The notes beneath the pieces were generated by a model. That model had not been told where the DNA came from and made no database searches. It worked only from the letters and a program-made list of their open reading frames with translations. A DNA stretch of 64,000 nucleotides from Saprospirales bacterium (GTDB lineage Bacteria; Bacteroidota; Bacteroidia; Chitinophagales; Saprospiraceae), in the NCBI GenBank assembly GCA_007693915.1, contig RECS01000135.1, forward strand, positions 1-64,000. The letters are read 5' to 3'. Positions 8,917 to 17,467 of the stretch are shown here, in pieces. A program made the translations under genes and the position numbers. The first letter of the stretch is position 1. Every line of letters starts with the position of its first letter.

Positions 8917-9633
8917 ATGATCCGATTAACCATTTTTTTATTAGTCTTTTTCATTGTAGGAACTCCTACAATTTTTTCCCAAAACCCAGTAAATCCCGGT
9001 TCAGAATGGTCCAAAACCAGACATTTGAATGAGGGGGTAAGTACCTATCAGGTCTTATTTGCCAGATCAGGATGGGAAACACAGCAATCAGGAAAGATGA
9101 TCAGGACAATGCATATTTCCAATGATACACTTAAAGTTATTCGTGAAACTTCAAGGGGGAACATCAAGAGTACGGATACACTTTGGATGGATTATCCCTC
9201 TTTAATCCCTATTGTTTTTCAGTCCCAACAAAAGGATCGCAGAGCAATGTACAAAGTTGAAGGAGAGGATGTGAAAATACATATCGATTTCACCACAGCT
9301 GATGCATTAGACTACTCTCAGCCGGTTGGTCCGGGATTTTTTGATGTTTCCGCATTAGAGCTTGTACTTGGTGGACTCAATCGAAGAGGACTAAGGGATC
9401 GCACCGTTCGTCTTTTTGACCCACAAACCAGCTCGTTTATTAATTTTACGGTCTCAGAAGTAAGCAGAGATCGCATAAAGGATGCCAATGACAACAGACA
9501 AAGGTGCTTTTTAGTAACAGGCAGACTCAACAATGCAGAAGCCTCTTTCTGGGTACACAGAAGATCAGGAGAACTCATTAAATCAAGAATAGAGATGAGT
9601 GGACAGATGGCAATGATATTGCTGAGAGAGTAA
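8917..9633 (+). CDS. exported protein, DUF3108-like; 3' end appears replaced by inserted DNA
   Basis: 238 residues. The signal peptide is MIRLTIFLLVFFIVGTPTIFSQ. The mature part is beta-rich with YQVLFARSGWE, DTLWMDYPSLIPIVFQS and a final FWVHRRSGELIKSRIEMSG strand pair. That last pattern recalls DUF3108-type periplasmic or outer-membrane proteins; the assignment is tentative. Bases 9424-9611 of this gene are repeated perfectly at 13553-13740. The last eight codons here (MAMILLRE) differ by synonymous or conservative changes from the downstream copy (MAMLLLRE). This intact gene is therefore probably a hybrid whose final codons came with the 3.9-kb insert that follows. It starts 23 bp after the secA stop. 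Confidence 0.7.
   Translation: MIRLTIFLLVFFIVGTPTIFSQNPVNPGSEWSKTRHLNEGVSTYQVLFARSGWETQQSGKMIRTMHISNDTLKVIRETSRGNIKSTDTLWMDYPSLIPIVFQSQQKDRRAMYKVEGEDVKIHIDFTTADALDYSQPVGPGFFDVSALELVLGGLNRRGLRDRTVRLFDPQTSSFINFTVSEVSRDRIKDANDNRQRCFLVTGRLNNAEASFWVHRRSGELIKSRIEMSGQMAMILLRE
9424..9611. repeat. left copy of 188-bp perfect direct repeat flanking the AT-rich insert
   Basis: Identical base for base to 13553-13740 (offset 4129), read by eye across the whole block. Both edges are sharp: 9423/13552 and 9612/13741 mismatch and similarity falls away outside. This copy lies inside the intact gene 8917-9633. Confidence 0.95.
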
Positions 9634-9790
9634 TTAAATTATTTTCTCCAAACCAAATTAGTTGCCATCCATGACTTTCAATTTTTCCGCTTGATAATAA
9701 CTGAATCCTGTGCGGGGCTTATAGCTTTAAGGTACAATTTTAAAGCATCTTTTTATCCATAAAAATTATTCAGCAGCAGAAAAACATATA

Positions 9791-9871
9791 ATGAAATATA
9801 AAATTGCCGATACTGTCCTGATAGTGATTTTACTTTTGTTCATATTTCAAATATTGGTGGAACAAAGATAA
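9791..9871 (+). pseudogene. 26-codon fragment resembling the N-terminus of the S41 protease
   Basis: ATG at 9791 to TAA at 9869-9871 encodes MKYKIADTVLIVILLLFIFQ plus VEQR-like residues. The S41 protease at 14002 starts MKYKITGIVLLVISLLFYSF. They share MKYKI and the same run of a membrane anchor, then this copy stops. It also sits downstream of a second version of the gene-8917 tail, in the same order as the native locus. This suggests the insert brought in the equivalent locus of a related strain, truncated here. Short hydrophobic matches can be fortuitous, so this is only moderately supported. Confidence 0.45.
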
Positions 9872-9945
9872 AAAATAATCAGGAAATTACTCTGTTTTTA
9901 ATTTCTATAGAACACCAATTTTCTTAATTAAAAGTTTAATGATTC

Positions 9946-9977
9946 TTTGTCAAATACTTAGACTAAACTTATATTTG
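9946..9977 (+). promoter_or_regulatory. Bacteroidota promoter for the GH16 gene
   Basis: TTTG at 9946-9949, a 20-bp spacer, and TATATTTG at 9970-9977: both boxes of the Bacteroidota housekeeping consensus at the expected spacing. It would give a leader of roughly 90 bases before the ATG at 10074. The GH16 and methyltransferase genes could be read from it as one transcript. Confidence 0.6.
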
Positions 9978-10073
9978 CTAATCTTTTACCCTAAAGCCCT
10001 TTGATTTTATATAAAAACAGATCTATTTAAATATTACAAATAATAATAATTCATTACTTAAGCAAAAATTAAT

Positions 10074-12758
10074 ATGAAAACTTTACTGGAGATTTTTATT
10101 TTATTTTTACTAACTTTTTTCGCTAAAGAATTAAGGACTCAATGCCAATCTGAAATATGCACTTGGCCAAAAGTTTATTTGGCTAGTGGTAATTTAAATT
10201 GTACGGATTGGGAGGTTTCTTTATATGATGATTTTTCAGGTATTGAATTAAATAATGAAATATGGAAAACCCATAGATTTGTTGATACCCATGAAGTCGC
10301 AAGGTTAAATTCATGGGATGAAGAGCAACTCTACATGGATGAAAATGTCACTATCGATAATGGAAAATGCATATTAAAAGGAAAATTTGAACCAGGTACA
10401 ACATGGACAAATCATCAAGGTCAAACATTTACCAGAGATGTTACATCAGGAATGATTGAAACACGGGAAATTTTCAGATTTGCATATTATGAAGCAAAAA
10501 TAAAAAACCCTGGTGGAGGTTGGTGGCCCGCTTTTTGGATGTGGCATCATGATGAAATTGATATAATGGAAATATTTCATGATAAAAGTCTTTTTTTTTA
10601 TAACCTACACACTACAGAGGATGAACTTGGCTGTTTAAATGAGTTTCATTTCAATGTTTCCGATGGAAATTTTTATACATTTGCAGCTGAGTTAACTCCA
10701 TTTTCTCTTACTTTTTATTTGGATGGTACTCCCCTACCAAAAAGGTTTTATCGCTTTTATGATAAAAACGGACAACCTCTTAAGGTTTCATGTGATAATA
10801 CTGAAATTCCCTCTGGCAATTATTATGTTAATCCAGTTTTTCCGCAATCTCGCTCAAGGGGTTTTAGCCCAATTATTAACTTGGCCGTTTTGCCAAAATA
10901 TGGCTTAGGAAGTTGTCAAACTCAAAATCCAAATTGTTTACCTCCTCTTTGTTACGATTGTAGTGGGCAAACTACTTGTGATTGGGGATCACCCTTTGGA
11001 GACAACTGTACATTAGTACATGATTTTCCTGGAATACTTGAAATTGATTTTGTAAAAATCAAAGAGCGTGAATATAAAATCTGTAATTCTCTAATGGTTT
11101 ATGGTTATAACTGTCAAAAAACTGGGATCCATAGGGACCCGATATCATGTTCAAATTTTTATTGTTTAGGGGAAACTGCCAATCTTTATTTAGAGGATAT
11201 AAGTGGATCAAACTGGTTAAGTGAAGTTGAAATACTTTATGTTTTACCATCACTGGATATAGAAGTTTTAACTTTTGACAATCATAGGATTCAATACAAG
11301 CAAAATCACATTGGAGAAGGAAGAATTAGTATAGTTTATTTAAGTAATTGTGGATCTAATACTGTTTTTAATTATTTTTTACCTAGTATTGAAATTAATG
11401 CTGAATTAAAAACAATAACCCCTTGCGAAGGTAAAGCTACGATTGAATTTGAAGGTATTTCTTGCGCTACAAGTCAACTAGATATAATTAGTATAAAATC
11501 TAAAAATAAGTGGGGAAGTTTAAAACCTGTAGTTTTTGAATTTGAAGCAAATAAACTGCACCTTAATTTCAAAGGACAATATTTTATTAGGAAATTATTA
11601 GTTCAAGTGGTAGATAGGTGTCACAATAATTATGTTTTCGAGTTCAATATTCCACCATGCAATGAATGTTGTCCTGAAAATTTTGAGTATGATGGAGTTA
11701 ACTGTTTTTCAGGATTTAATTTTTCAGATGTTAATGGTTTTGTTCATGGTAATAGCTTTTTTACTACCACAAATTGTATGAAGTATCCAGATAATAATTG
11801 TTGTCCACCTGGTACAACTTTTAACGGTATTCACTGCTTCTTTATAGAAATAGAAGTAGGATTTGAAGGGTTCGTTTATGGTAACGGATTTTATACAAAT
11901 ATTAATTGTGAAAAAAACTGTTGTCCGGAAAGTTACACTTTTGATGGGGCAAATTGTCATTCTGGAATAAATTTTGATGCAGAAGTTGTTAATGGGTTTA
12001 TTTATGATGGAATTTTTTATACATCACCTAATTGCAATTATTATATCAATACAAATTGTTGTCCGCCTGAATCTATTTTTGATGGATATAACTGCAACTT
12101 TGGATCAATACCAATAGGATTTGAGGGGTTCGTTTTCGGTAATGGATTTTATGTCAAACCAAATTGTGAAAAATGCTGCCCTGATGGGGCAAATTTTGAT
12201 GGTGCTAATTGTTATTATGGAATTCACTTTATTGAAGGAGAAGGTTTTATTCATAATAATAGCTTTTATACTAAACCTGATTGCATTAATCACACAGAAT
12301 ATGATTGTTGCCCACCTGGATCTGTCTTTGATGGTGCTAATTGTTATTATGAAATTCACTTTATTGAAGGAGAAGGTTTTATTCATAATAATAGTTTTTA
12401 TACTAAACCAAAAGATTGTTTTGAACTTTTCAATCAAAATATTAGTGACCCGATCAATGAGGAGACTGTGGTAAATAAAATCAACTATAATGACAAACAA
12501 ATTCTTTTAAACGAAAATAGTATAAAAATCTTCCCAAATCCCTTTACTGATGCATTGAATATTGAGATAACAAATCTCTTATACCAAGATATTGAGAAGG
12601 TAATAGTTATGACAATAGATGGCACTAAAATTACAAGCATAAAGGGGGACTCAATAAATAGGATAATGACGTTAAATGAAATAAACAATCCTGGGGTATA
12701 CATTATTCAAATCTTTACCAATTATGATATATTTATTTTTAAAGTAATTAAAATTTAG
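10074..12758 (+). CDS. secreted GH16-family glycosidase with six Cys-rich repeats and T9SS type A C-terminal domain
   Basis: 894 residues. A signal peptide covers about residues 1-23. A GH16 (laminarinase/agarase-type beta-glucanase) domain spans about 40-330. Its catalytic signature is E161-I-D163-I-M-E166, preceded by the aromatic WWPAFWMWHHD. GH16 enzymes cut beta-1,3/1,4 linkages of glucans or algal galactans; the substrate here is unknown. Residues 532-782 are six repeats of about 40-46 residues, each starting CCP and carrying FDGxNC, then GFxxGNxFY. The last two repeats are 44 codons apart and nearly identical in DNA (12195-12278 versus 12327-12410, two differences), so the array is still expanding. 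The end (KIFPNPFTDAL from about 818) is a type A T9SS signal. Codon use is far more AT-rich than in neighbouring core genes, supporting transfer. Confidence 0.85.
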   Translation: MKTLLEIFILFLLTFFAKELRTQCQSEICTWPKVYLASGNLNCTDWEVSLYDDFSGIELNNEIWKTHRFVDTHEVARLNSWDEEQLYMDENVTIDNGKCILKGKFEPGTTWTNHQGQTFTRDVTSGMIETREIFRFAYYEAKIKNPGGGWWPAFWMWHHDEIDIMEIFHDKSLFFYNLHTTEDELGCLNEFHFNVSDGNFYTFAAELTPFSLTFYLDGTPLPKRFYRFYDKNGQPLKVSCDNTEIPSGNYYVNPVFPQSRSRGFSPIINLAVLPKYGLGSCQTQNPNCLPPLCYDCSGQTTCDWGSPFGDNCTLVHDFPGILEIDFVKIKEREYKICNSLMVYGYNCQKTGIHRDPISCSNFYCLGETANLYLEDISGSNWLSEVEILYVLPSLDIEVLTFDNHRIQYKQNHIGEGRISIVYLSNCGSNTVFNYFLPSIEINAELKTITPCEGKATIEFEGISCATSQLDIISIKSKNKWGSLKPVVFEFEANKLHLNFKGQYFIRKLLVQVVDRCHNNYVFEFNIPPCNECCPENFEYDGVNCFSGFNFSDVNGFVHGNSFFTTTNCMKYPDNNCCPPGTTFNGIHCFFIEIEVGFEGFVYGNGFYTNINCEKNCCPESYTFDGANCHSGINFDAEVVNGFIYDGIFYTSPNCNYYINTNCCPPESIFDGYNCNFGSIPIGFEGFVFGNGFYVKPNCEKCCPDGANFDGANCYYGIHFIEGEGFIHNNSFYTKPDCINHTEYDCCPPGSVFDGANCYYEIHFIEGEGFIHNNSFYTKPKDCFELFNQNISDPINEETVVNKINYNDKQILLNENSIKIFPNPFTDALNIEITNLLYQDIEKVIVMTIDGTKITSIKGDSINRIMTLNEINNPGVYIIQIFTNYDIFIFKVIKI

Positions 12759-12759
12759 A

Positions 12760-13527
12760 ATGAAAACAGAATCTTATAATCCAGAACAATACTGGTCAGA
12801 AGTTGCAGAAAGAATAAAAATACGAGAAAATGAAGGGACTGAAATTGCTGGTGATGACGAACCGTATTATCGTTACAAAAGAAATGAATTTTTAAAATTA
12901 TTAAAATCAATTAATTTTGAACAAAAAAAAGTTCTAGAAATTGGTTGCGGACCAGGTGGGAATTTAATTGAAATATCCAACCTTAATCCTTCTAAACTTA
13001 TTGGGGTTGATATTTCTTCTGAAATGGTGGATTTAGCAAGAAGGAACCTTCCCGAAAACATTAAAGTGTTAAAAACAAATGGAACAAAACTTGCTTTTCA
13101 AGATAAATCATTTGATGTTGCATTTACAGCCACAGTGCTCCAACATAATACAAATGAAAAAAAATTATTAGAGCTGATTTCAGAAATTTGTAGAGTAAGC
13201 TCAGAAAGAGTATTCCTTTTCGAGAGAATTGAGAAAAATGTACATGGTTCCGAGTTGTGCTTAGGAAGACCTATTTCCTATTATTCTAAAATCATGAATA
13301 AAAATGGATTCGATCTAGTCCACAAAGAACATATCAATATTAGAATAAGTTATTATGTTTGTGGAGCAATAAGAAAACTATTAAATCCAAGAACAAGAAA
13401 AGAGGGACAACCTTTAAATAAAATATCGATAATATTGCAAAATCTAACTTTGCCATTTACAAAGAAGCTAGATAAAATTTTCAAATCTGATTATGATATA
13501 GCAAAGTTAGAATATAAAAAATTATAA
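12760..13527 (+). CDS. class I SAM-dependent methyltransferase
   Basis: 255 residues, starting one base after the GH16 stop, so almost certainly cotranscribed. The Rossmann methyltransferase signature is clear: VLEIGCGPGGNL (SAM-binding motif I, about residues 62-73), LIGVDISSEMVDLAR (motif II acidic residue) and FDVAFTATVLQHN (motif IV). The substrate cannot be deduced. C-terminal residues beyond about 190 are basic and could bind a membrane or a carrier. Composition is as AT-rich as the GH16 gene. Pairing with a secreted glycosidase suggests glycan or lipid modification, but that is a guess from location only. Confidence 0.85.
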   Translation: MKTESYNPEQYWSEVAERIKIRENEGTEIAGDDEPYYRYKRNEFLKLLKSINFEQKKVLEIGCGPGGNLIEISNLNPSKLIGVDISSEMVDLARRNLPENIKVLKTNGTKLAFQDKSFDVAFTATVLQHNTNEKKLLELISEICRVSSERVFLFERIEKNVHGSELCLGRPISYYSKIMNKNGFDLVHKEHINIRISYYVCGAIRKLLNPRTRKEGQPLNKISIILQNLTLPFTKKLDKIFKSDYDIAKLEYKKL

Positions 13528-13552
13528 AGGATTGATCCATTAAATCTTTGTC

Positions 13553-13740
13553 CAAACCAGCTCGTTTATTAATTTTACGGTCTCAGAAGTAAGCAGAGAT
13601 CGCATAAAGGATGCCAATGACAACAGACAAAGGTGCTTTTTAGTAACAGGCAGACTCAACAATGCAGAAGCCTCTTTCTGGGTACACAGAAGATCAGGAG
13701 AACTCATTAAATCAAGAATAGAGATGAGTGGACAGATGGC
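13553..13740. repeat. right copy of the 188-bp perfect direct repeat
   Basis: Identical to 9424-9611. It lies inside the truncated gene remnant 13553-13762 and marks the right end of the AT-rich insert. Confidence 0.95.
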
Positions 13741-13762
13741 CATGTTACTATTACGTGAATAG
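13553..13762 (+). pseudogene. displaced 3' end of the 8917-9633 gene
   Basis: In-frame copy of the last 69 codons of the exported protein at 8917-9633, from TSSFINFT through FWVHRRSGELIKSRIEMSG to MAMLLLRE and TAG at 13760-13762. An in-frame stop (TAA, 13541-13543) lies just before it and there is no start, so it is not expressed as such. Its final eight codons (13739-13762) use different triplets from the upstream gene for nearly the same residues. Since it abuts the S41 protease gene, this is likely the native end of the gene pushed aside by the insert. Confidence 0.9.
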
Positions 13763-14001
13763 GCCTTTTCTGTCAATTTGTTAATTTACAGCAATTAAGC
13801 AATTGTCCGAAGAAAAAAACAATAATCGAGGGACTACCATGTTTAATCAGCATGAACAAAAACCCTGTGGAATGGTAATGCACAGCTATAACCTTTTTTA
13901 TTACCCAAACGTTATTCCTGAATGATTTGAAATTCAGAAAAAGATAGCTATTGCTCAGATGCCAGATCACAGCTGATTATCCAACAAATAAAAATACAAA
14001 A

Positions 14002-15636
14002 ATGAAGTATAAAATAACAGGAATTGTTCTTCTGGTGATCTCTTTACTTTTTTACTCATTCAGCGAAAGGGTTTCTAATTACTTTGAACTCACCAAGAAT
14101 CTGGAAATTTTCACCACCGTATATAAAGAAGTAAACGCTAACTACATAACTGATCTCGATCACAGCAGTTTAATGAAAGCAGGCATTGATGCCATGTTGG
14201 GAACACTGGATCCATACACGGTTTTTGTCTCAGAAAATCAGGTGGAAAGAAGTAGATATATGGCAGAGGGTAGATATGATGGAGTGGGTATGGAGATAAA
14301 AAACGTTAATGAAAATATAGTCGTGGAATTTGTTTACAGTGGTTTTGGAGCTCATGAGGCGGGCATTATGGCAGGCGATATTATTGAAAAAATGGAGGGC
14401 AGGAGTCTAAAAGGGTTTGATGAAGAAGATGTAATGATTTTTATGCGTGGGGCATCAGGTACAAAACTGAATATGGATGTTTATAGACCCCACGATAATA
14501 CGAGTTTCAATGTAGATGTCGAGAGACAGGATGTGAGCGTCCCGAATGTACCCTATTCGGGGATGGTTGCAGATGGAATTGCCTACGTAGCCCTCAGTAC
14601 ATTTACACCCATGTCAGGGCGCAACCTCGCTGCTGCAATGGATAAGTTAAAAAATGAACATGGTGATTTTAAAGGAATCATTCTGGATCTGAGAAATAAT
14701 GGAGGAGGTTTGCTTACCGAAGCCATCAATGTATCTAATCTTTTTATACCTCAAGGCAAGCTAGTTGTATCCACTAAAGGTAATTTAGAACAGTGGAACA
14801 GGTCTTTCAATACCAATAATCAGCCATACGATTTAGAAACACCCCTTGTTGTACTGATTAATGAAAATTCTGCATCGGCATCAGAAATAGTGTCCGGAGT
14901 TATGCAGGATTACGACCGTGGGGTATTAATTGGGCAGAGAACATATGGAAAAGGGCTGGTTCAGAATATGCGTCCTTTGAATTATAATACTCAAATGAGG
15001 ATAACCACATCTGAATATTTTATTCCAAGTGGTCGAGGAATTCAAAACGTCAAGTATGAAGATGGTCAACCGGTCGCTATCCCGGATTCACTTCGTGGGG
15101 TTTTCCAAACTCAAAATGGACGTACAGTATTGGATGGTGGAGGAGTTGCGCCTGATTTAGAAATCCCAAAACCGGAACTACCTGAGGTAGTACAGGCATT
15201 ATTAGACCAAAACCTAATTTTTAATTACGCGACTGATTTTAGACACAGATATGATAGTATTCCTGAACCCGGTGAGTTTACTTTTGACAAATTCGGTGAT
15301 TTTGTTTCCTATGTTGGGAAAAAAGATTTCCATTTTACCCTTGAAGGCGAGACCCTATTAGAGGACTTCATAGCTTCAGCAGAAAGTGGTCTGTACAGCA
15401 ATGATGTACAGAGAGAAATCAGCAAGATAAAAGATGTATTGAACAGGGTAAAAGGAAATGCGCTCTCTAAGCATGAAACGATGATTGTTCGTCTGCTTGA
15501 AGATGAGATCGTTTCAAGATATTATTTCCAAGAGGGTAAAACTCGTCAGAATCTGCTTAGAACTGACGAAATGCAAAGAGCAATAGAATTATTAAACAAC
15601 AGATCTGAATATGATCAAATATTAAGCGGAAAATAA
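14002..15636 (+). CDS. S41-family carboxyl-terminal processing peptidase (Ctp/Prc-like)
   Basis: 544 residues from the ATG at 14002; a TTG at 13951 would only add an unlikely tail. The N-terminus is a single membrane anchor (ITGIVLLVISLLFYSF), so the enzyme faces the periplasm. A PDZ domain lies at about 80-165 (GVGMEIKN, AGDIIEKMEG). The S41 core follows, with the catalytic Ser in SAS292ASEI and Lys in TYGK317G. The 25-residue spacing matches Prc (S430/K455). Such proteases trim C-termini and degrade misfolded envelope proteins. About 150 extra residues follow the core, as in Bacteroidota homologues. Its stop touches the tsaB start, so the two form an operon. Confidence 0.95.
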   Translation: MKYKITGIVLLVISLLFYSFSERVSNYFELTKNLEIFTTVYKEVNANYITDLDHSSLMKAGIDAMLGTLDPYTVFVSENQVERSRYMAEGRYDGVGMEIKNVNENIVVEFVYSGFGAHEAGIMAGDIIEKMEGRSLKGFDEEDVMIFMRGASGTKLNMDVYRPHDNTSFNVDVERQDVSVPNVPYSGMVADGIAYVALSTFTPMSGRNLAAAMDKLKNEHGDFKGIILDLRNNGGGLLTEAINVSNLFIPQGKLVVSTKGNLEQWNRSFNTNNQPYDLETPLVVLINENSASASEIVSGVMQDYDRGVLIGQRTYGKGLVQNMRPLNYNTQMRITTSEYFIPSGRGIQNVKYEDGQPVAIPDSLRGVFQTQNGRTVLDGGGVAPDLEIPKPELPEVVQALLDQNLIFNYATDFRHRYDSIPEPGEFTFDKFGDFVSYVGKKDFHFTLEGETLLEDFIASAESGLYSNDVQREISKIKDVLNRVKGNALSKHETMIVRLLEDEIVSRYYFQEGKTRQNLLRTDEMQRAIELLNNRSEYDQILSGK

Positions 15637-16344
15637 TTGAATCCAAAAGCATCTAATTATAGCAAACCCTTATTATTATCTCTCGAGACCGCAGGGACAA
15701 GTTGTTCTGTTTGTTTATCTGAAGGGACCCACGTTCTATTTGAAATGGAAGAGCATGAGGCCTATCGACACAATGAGTTGTTGGCAGACTTCACTGATCG
15801 TATTTTAAAATTGGCTAAGCTTATGGTAAAAGACCTTGATGCTATAGTCATTAACCACGGTCCCGGGAGTTATACAGGCCTTAGAGTAGGCTTCGCTTTT
15901 GGAAAAGCACTTTCTTATGCTTCAGGTATTCCACTTTATCCGGTTTCAGGGCTGGAAGGCATGGCTACTGAAGCTATTGAATTTAGTACTGCTGATTGGT
16001 ATATTCCAATGCTTGACGCAAGACGTATGGAGGTATATTCTGCGGTATATGATAGTAGCTTAAATTGTATAGATCCCCCGCTTCCTGTAATATTAAGTAA
16101 AGAATTTTTCGAACAAAAAAGGTTTGATGACCAAAAAATATTATTAATTGGGGAAGCCGCAGAAAAGGCAATGCGGTTGGATCCACCTTCTAATTATGAA
16201 TTTTTACCCATTGGGTTAAAGGCTTCTAATTTAATTACCCCTGCACTAAAGAGAATGAAACTTCCTGCGGATGATTCAGCTTACATGGAACCCATGTATT
16301 TAAAGGAAGTAAGAATTACTACTTCAAAGAAAACTCTAAAGTAG
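15637..16344 (+). CDS. tsaB: tRNA threonylcarbamoyladenosine biosynthesis protein TsaB
   Basis: 235 residues. TsaB partners TsaD and TsaE in making t6A37 on ANN-decoding tRNAs. The ASKHA-fold N-terminus is typical: LLLSLETAGTSCSVCL, then INHGPGSYTGLRVGFAFGKAL (about 72-91) and PVSGLEGMA. The start is a TTG directly after the S41 protease TAA; no ATG or GTG is available before the conserved LSLET strand, so TTG is required. The length is normal for the family. Confidence 0.93.
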   Translation: MNPKASNYSKPLLLSLETAGTSCSVCLSEGTHVLFEMEEHEAYRHNELLADFTDRILKLAKLMVKDLDAIVINHGPGSYTGLRVGFAFGKALSYASGIPLYPVSGLEGMATEAIEFSTADWYIPMLDARRMEVYSAVYDSSLNCIDPPLPVILSKEFFEQKRFDDQKILLIGEAAEKAMRLDPPSNYEFLPIGLKASNLITPALKRMKLPADDSAYMEPMYLKEVRITTSKKTLK

Positions 16345-16495
16345 AAAAAAACGTTATGTTTTTGTAAGCTGAAATTCAATAAAATACAGATATATTTTTA
16401 ATGAATTTATATATTTTTTTAGCTCACCACTAAAATTGGTACAGTTTTAGCTTATGGTAATGTGTTTCTGTAATACATTATAAAACCATTTTGAA

Positions 16496-16834
16496 ATGAG
16501 AAAAGATAAAAACGAAAATGTAACCCTTAGAAAAGGGGAAAAAGACATTCACCTCAATTATGCTGATCTGAGAAAAGCTGTTTTAGTACTCAGGGCAGTA
16601 AACCATAAATTGAGACAAAGAATTATTGACCTCCTTGAAGAGAGTCAATCACTTACTGTAACAGACATTTATATTAAGTTGAGACTTGAGCAGTCTGTTG
16701 CATCCCAGCATTTAGCTATCCTGAGGAGGGCCGGAGTGGTTGCTACTGAAAGAGAGGGAAAGTTCATTTACTACAGTCTTGATCGGGACAGATTGGGTCA
16801 AATAAGTCGACTTGTAGAAGAGTTAGCTGGTTAA
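16496..16834 (+). CDS. ArsR-type winged-helix regulator (first of a pair)
   Basis: 112 residues. The ArsR/SmtB fold is read from LRAVNHKLRQRIIDLLEE, then TVTDIYIKLRLEQSVASQHLAILRRAGVV (recognition helix) and the wing EREGKFIYYSLD. The metal-sensing ELCVCDL-type Cys motif is absent; TVTDIYIKL stands in its place and the protein has no cysteine. It therefore probably does not sense metals through the alpha3 site. It lies 218 bp upstream of a clear paralogue. An imperfect dyad (TAATGT ... ACATTA) sits at about 16458-16480, just before the gene, and could be its own operator. Confidence 0.88.
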   Translation: MRKDKNENVTLRKGEKDIHLNYADLRKAVLVLRAVNHKLRQRIIDLLEESQSLTVTDIYIKLRLEQSVASQHLAILRRAGVVATEREGKFIYYSLDRDRLGQISRLVEELAG

Positions 16835-17358: not shown

Positions 17359-17467
17359 TCATTATTGAAATACACTCTACACTCAACCTTTTTGAAAAGA
17401 AAAAATAACAGTAAAAATCTATAAGACAGGTCCCATCCCTTTTTTCATTTTTATTATAATACCTGTT

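Follow-up and report, generated by a model that had tools for sequence, protein, structure and literature searches.

How did two AT-rich genes come to lie between two identical pieces of a third gene in the genome of an uncultivated member of the Saprospiraceae? The genome, Saprospirales bacterium GCA_007693915.1, is assembled as 3.43 Mb in 197 contigs. The locus lies on a 99-kb contig, RECS01000135.1, whose positions 1 to 64,000 on the forward strand make up the 64-kb stretch analysed here (the window). An initial annotation had proposed integration at a gene 3' end with restoration of the gene, or a single crossover by a circular donor, and had suggested that a secreted glycosidase and a methyltransferase might move together as a polysaccharide-use module. 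The features on which the argument turns are the following:

8917-9633, + strand: geneX, intact, directly behind secA, encoding a 238-residue secreted protein with a weak DUF6134-like match
9424-9611, + strand: 188-bp exact repeat, copy 1, within the 3' part of geneX (repeat comparison)
9612-9633, + strand: tail A of geneX, the end of MAMILLRE-stop, diverged counterpart of tail B
9764-9888, + strand: second, truncated and diverged version of the ctpA start and the sequence upstream of it, with the ORF MKYKIADTVLIVILLLFIFQILVEQR-stop at 9791-9871
9946-9977, + strand: candidate Bacteroidetes-type promoter, TTTG-N20-TAnnTTTG, ahead of the GH16 gene (6 matches in the window versus 2.5 expected; weak alone)
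10074-12758, + strand: GH16 family glycoside hydrolase with the motif EIDIME, six Cys-rich modules and a T9SS type A sorting domain (domain matches)
12760-13527, + strand: class I SAM-dependent methyltransferase (domain match and tree)
13553-13740, + strand: 188-bp exact repeat, copy 2, in a headless geneX end (repeat comparison)
13741-13762, + strand: tail B, the end of MAMLLLRE-stop in the headless geneX copy (comparison with tail A)
14002-15636, + strand: ctpA, intact, an S41 C-terminal processing peptidase and the first gene right of the scar (domain match)

The duplication and the segment it encloses

The 188-bp duplication noticed initially is indeed exact. Its copies lie 4.1 kb apart, and a match of this length at this spacing is not of chance origin. 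It is the longest repeat pair of the window, where the others are modules internal to the GH16 gene and a tandem array at 2.3-2.8 kb. The array consists of tandem-like direct repeats of 128 bp (2264-2783; 95% identity, 130-bp spacing), with a partial copy of 44 bp located 256 bp upstream. No further copy of the 188-bp block was found elsewhere in the 3.43-Mb, 197-contig genome. The description of the block as a duplicated gene 3' end holds in part: upstream geneX is complete and the downstream copy is headless, but the perfect repeat stops 22 bp short of the gene end, and diverged homology continues through the stop codons into the start of ctpA.

Between the copies, 3.9 kb of DNA has a GC content of 24-36% in 500-bp windows versus mostly 38-44% around it, in agreement with the earlier impression of an AT-richer, two-gene segment. 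Its coding content is confined to the GH16 gene (894 residues) and the methyltransferase gene (255 residues), and, as had been stated, a recombinase is absent. The third-position GC contents of these two genes, 0.202 and 0.188, respectively, are the two lowest on the contig, about 3 standard deviations under the mean for ORFs of at least 100 residues on the whole contig (0.347, standard deviation 0.046). No flanking inverted or terminal repeats of the segment were found, nor was a second insertion or copy of it in the genome, nor an Rfam RNA in the region.

Two versions of one geneX-ctpA junction

Upstream geneX ends in GCAATGATATTGCTGAGAGAG-TAA and the headless copy in GCCATGTTACTATTACGTGAA-TAG. 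In these tails 9 of 21 bases differ, a sharp fall to 57% identity directly beside the perfect 188 bp, and a single residue differs (AMILLRE versus AMLLLRE). Of 100,000 simulated sets of nine random substitutions, 1 or 4, depending on the starting sequence, altered no more than one residue. Because the differences are nearly all synonymous, the tails appear to have evolved apart in two genomes, each as the end of a functional gene, which in turn indicates that one flank was imported from a relative. On account of this pattern, a plain tandem duplication inside one genome was rejected. Furthermore, since a perfect block touches a tail of 57% identity, both 188-bp blocks should derive from one recent source. 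The simplest such source is the recipient's own geneX, and only if both copies are recipient-derived does the abrupt end of perfect identity need no further step.

Similarity between the flanks extends to the neighbouring gene. A frame of 26 codons at 9791, MKYKIADTVLIVILLLFIFQILVEQR, resembles the start of the ctpA product, MKYKITGIVLLVISLLFYSF, with a peptide score of 54, the next best among about 1000 ATG-started peptides of the window, taken as controls, being 37. The nucleotide alignment around this copy scores 27.5 versus 14.5 +/- 2.2 for shuffled sequences, and 0 of 500 shuffles reach that value. The pair of ctpA starts also retains more residues than expected from random change (P 0.018, by simulation), and flank homology reaches about 9888. 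The two flanks are thus variants of a single geneX-ctpA junction, in which 188 bp of perfect agreement give way to divergent sequence; one leads into intact ctpA, and the other into a broken start followed by the cargo. By this homology beyond the repeat, the left flank of the insert is itself a divergent form of the native junction. No homology is visible to the left of 13553, at the putative illegitimate joint.

The cargo genes and the locus in relatives

The GH16 family is sporadic, occurring in 11 of 199 genomes of the family with a best identity of 38%, and the six Cys-rich modules are missing from its best relative, in G139. These modules (11667-12410, about 40-46 residues each, of the form CCPxxxxFDGxNC...GFxxxxxFYxxxNC) have no match among Pfam and NCBIfam models; the final two share 88% DNA identity, which points to a recent duplication. 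Of the 199 genomes, 37 carry the methyltransferase, in changing neighbourhoods. The tree puts the present copy beside genus g85 (support 93/84), apart from its own genus, and SecA places the source genome with its own genus. Together with the lowest GC3 on the contig, this position supports the earlier view that the cargo is unrelated to its surroundings and of foreign origin. Among methyltransferase copies of one genus, those of G003 and G005 are split from that of G006. Searches for relatives of the methyltransferase in viral contigs found none; the only methyltransferases matched in phage records are distant and UbiE-like, and matches in plasmid records are limited to distant GH16 domains.

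The idea of a polysaccharide-use module was not supported by comparison. Across the family the methyltransferase is a scattered stand-alone gene (for example, L061, L062, and L141), and none of the 13 methyltransferase loci inspected has an adjoining GH16 gene; on the basis of these 13 neighbourhoods and one GH16 neighbourhood, a conserved pair was rejected. The locus itself shows neither a SusC/SusD pair nor several linked carbohydrate genes, the hallmarks of a polysaccharide utilisation locus. The surrounding genes are secA, geneX, ctpA, a tsaB-like gene, and ArsR-like genes.

The relatives compared were metagenome-assembled genomes of Saprospiraceae and Saprospirales. In three congeneric genomes (G004, G005, and G007), a geneX homolog of 34-46% identity stands behind secA, and the next gene is pdxA-like in G007 and different in the other two; in none of the three is there an element or other cargo at geneX. 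Relatives have an alpha/beta hydrolase ahead of ctpA, and none of the relatives inspected showed geneX next to ctpA, which is why neither an empty site nor the same site with other cargo, as proposed in the initial annotation for comparison, was found. In the source genome that hydrolase sits on another contig (C128), next to an RtcB-like gene in convergent orientation. The geneX-ctpA adjacency therefore arose in the source lineage, and a donor of the left flank must have had it too. No donor locus was found among the relatives searched. The break in gene order falls at 13763-16834, where relatives have the order alpha/beta hydrolase, ctpA, tsaB, ArsR.

The nearest relative, G001, whose SecA is 94% identical and whose DNA matches at about 80% identity to the right of the region, is unassembled between secA, within which its contig ends, and window position 17462. 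Similarity to its contig L173 (positions 1-155) stops at 17462, where the second ArsR-like gene has just ended. With its assembly broken on both sides of the region, G001 is unusable as an empty site. Compared with G001, the source genome has identities of 50-71% at third positions and 49-78% in intergenic stretches. By this measure the two haplotypes at the scar would be about as far apart as these genomes, or somewhat further.

Possible routes of acquisition

The reading favoured here, which is given slightly better than an even chance, is a one-off capture of DNA from another species by homology-facilitated illegitimate recombination (HFIR) and not the work of a mobile element. A fragment from a related species would have carried that species' geneX end, followed by intergenic DNA, a broken start of its ctpA, and both cargo genes. 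Its geneX end would have paired by homology with the recipient's geneX 3' end, with RecA-dependent joining at about 9611; the initial annotation had likewise looked to host RecA-type recombination, which is supported as a putative route. The other end would have lacked a homologous partner and been fused illegitimately to the sister chromatid, at a point 188 bp upstream of the crossover. As a result, 188 bp of recipient geneX would be duplicated, and recipient tail B and ctpA would remain intact behind the insert. The predicted order is recipient geneX to about 9611, donor tail, donor ctpA fragment, cargo, and then recipient sequence from 9424 on. Capture is favoured by the low GC3 of both cargo genes, by the grouping of the methyltransferase with another genus, and by the lack of a recombinase, inverted repeats, or a second copy. 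Genes for ComEC and DprA are present in the source genome, which makes the uptake of free DNA plausible, so that natural transformation may have delivered the fragment. These two genes are widespread, including in bacteria not known as competent.

Insertions with a single homologous end are known from bacteria capable of natural transformation (see the summaries in PMC3240628 and PMC5361080). As in the HFIR of Streptococcus pneumoniae, Acinetobacter baylyi, and Pseudomonas stutzeri, one end here, carrying the diverged geneX tail and ctpA start, is homologous, the other would be illegitimate, and the foreign DNA has no recombinase of its own. Unlike those observed events, the present one is deduced from sequence. 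In addition, the usual outcome of HFIR is a loss of recipient sequence, not its duplication (PMC3240628), whereas here 188 bp are duplicated. This counts against the HFIR reading, as do the shortness of the tail and ctpA-start homologies and the failure to find a donor or an empty site in the relatives, and the locus is better said to work like HFIR than filed as a certain member of the class. Interchromatid integration that yields duplications has been described in pneumococcus (PMC3784515). In Vibrio T6SS arrays of displaced effector-immunity genes with orphan 3' ends (PMC5361080), an incoming gene is similarly anchored on a conserved stretch and leaves the old end downstream; the genes there are different, and no repeated cycles are seen here.

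A circular or recircularised donor, with a portion of geneX and the broken ctpA start alongside the cargo, would give the same overall layout by a single crossover within the 188 bp, as initially suggested. Fourteen single-crossover clones of E. coli, obtained by conjugation with a partly degraded and recircularised plasmid and then sequenced, held the foreign DNA between direct duplications of the target gene of 109-950 bp (PMC3240628), a range that fits the present block. The homology in those clones had, however, been cloned from the host, whereas here the flank past the repeat is strongly diverged. The 188 bp of a circular donor would have to equal that of the recipient despite a tail identity of 57%, and so a prior or later gene conversion would be needed; nor was a replication or mobilisation gene found in the segment. 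A circle is thus possible but rather unlikely. An old insertion, with a longer duplication into ctpA whose flanks decayed and 188 bp kept identical by recent gene conversion, is less probable than that. It would account for flank homology reaching beyond 188 bp, but tail B would have been unselected, and yet the tails differ almost only synonymously (P about 1e-5 to 4e-5); moreover, the composition of the cargo has not ameliorated. Still a little less probable is an assembly artefact in which two strains, or integrated and excised forms, were joined through the repeat. The many contigs, the shortness of the repeat, and the break in G001 on both sides of the same region would suit it, but a false join alone cannot create the junction between the cargo end and the 188 bp, which must exist in some molecule, and does not explain a diverged tail beside an identical block.

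Integration of phage 21 and e14 at the icd 3' end replaces the gene end with a synonymous donor end and leaves the native end on the far side. The present locus would share this restored upstream gene with a synonymous replacement end and the native end beyond the insert. However, a site-specific element acting at the geneX 3' end with a recombinase in trans is very improbable, given the long perfect block, the drop to 57% identity, and the captured, broken start of ctpA inside the segment, together with the absence of an integrase, phage genes, terminal repeats, a second genomic insertion, and other cargo at this site in relatives. The mobility suggested for the segment is not supported, and a small cassette that moves repeatedly among Saprospiraceae at geneX ends, restoring the gene through a recombinase in trans, is the least probable reading considered.

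Capture in a single event, the favoured reading, is of an already known kind, with an unusually clear anatomy: one end of the event is recognisable from the diverged flanks, the other from the duplicated block. It would provide a readable case of gene gain without a mobile element in an uncultivated lineage of Bacteroidota. The scar pattern, an exact block followed by a synonymous tail, is searchable across genomes and may thereby give the natural frequency of such capture.
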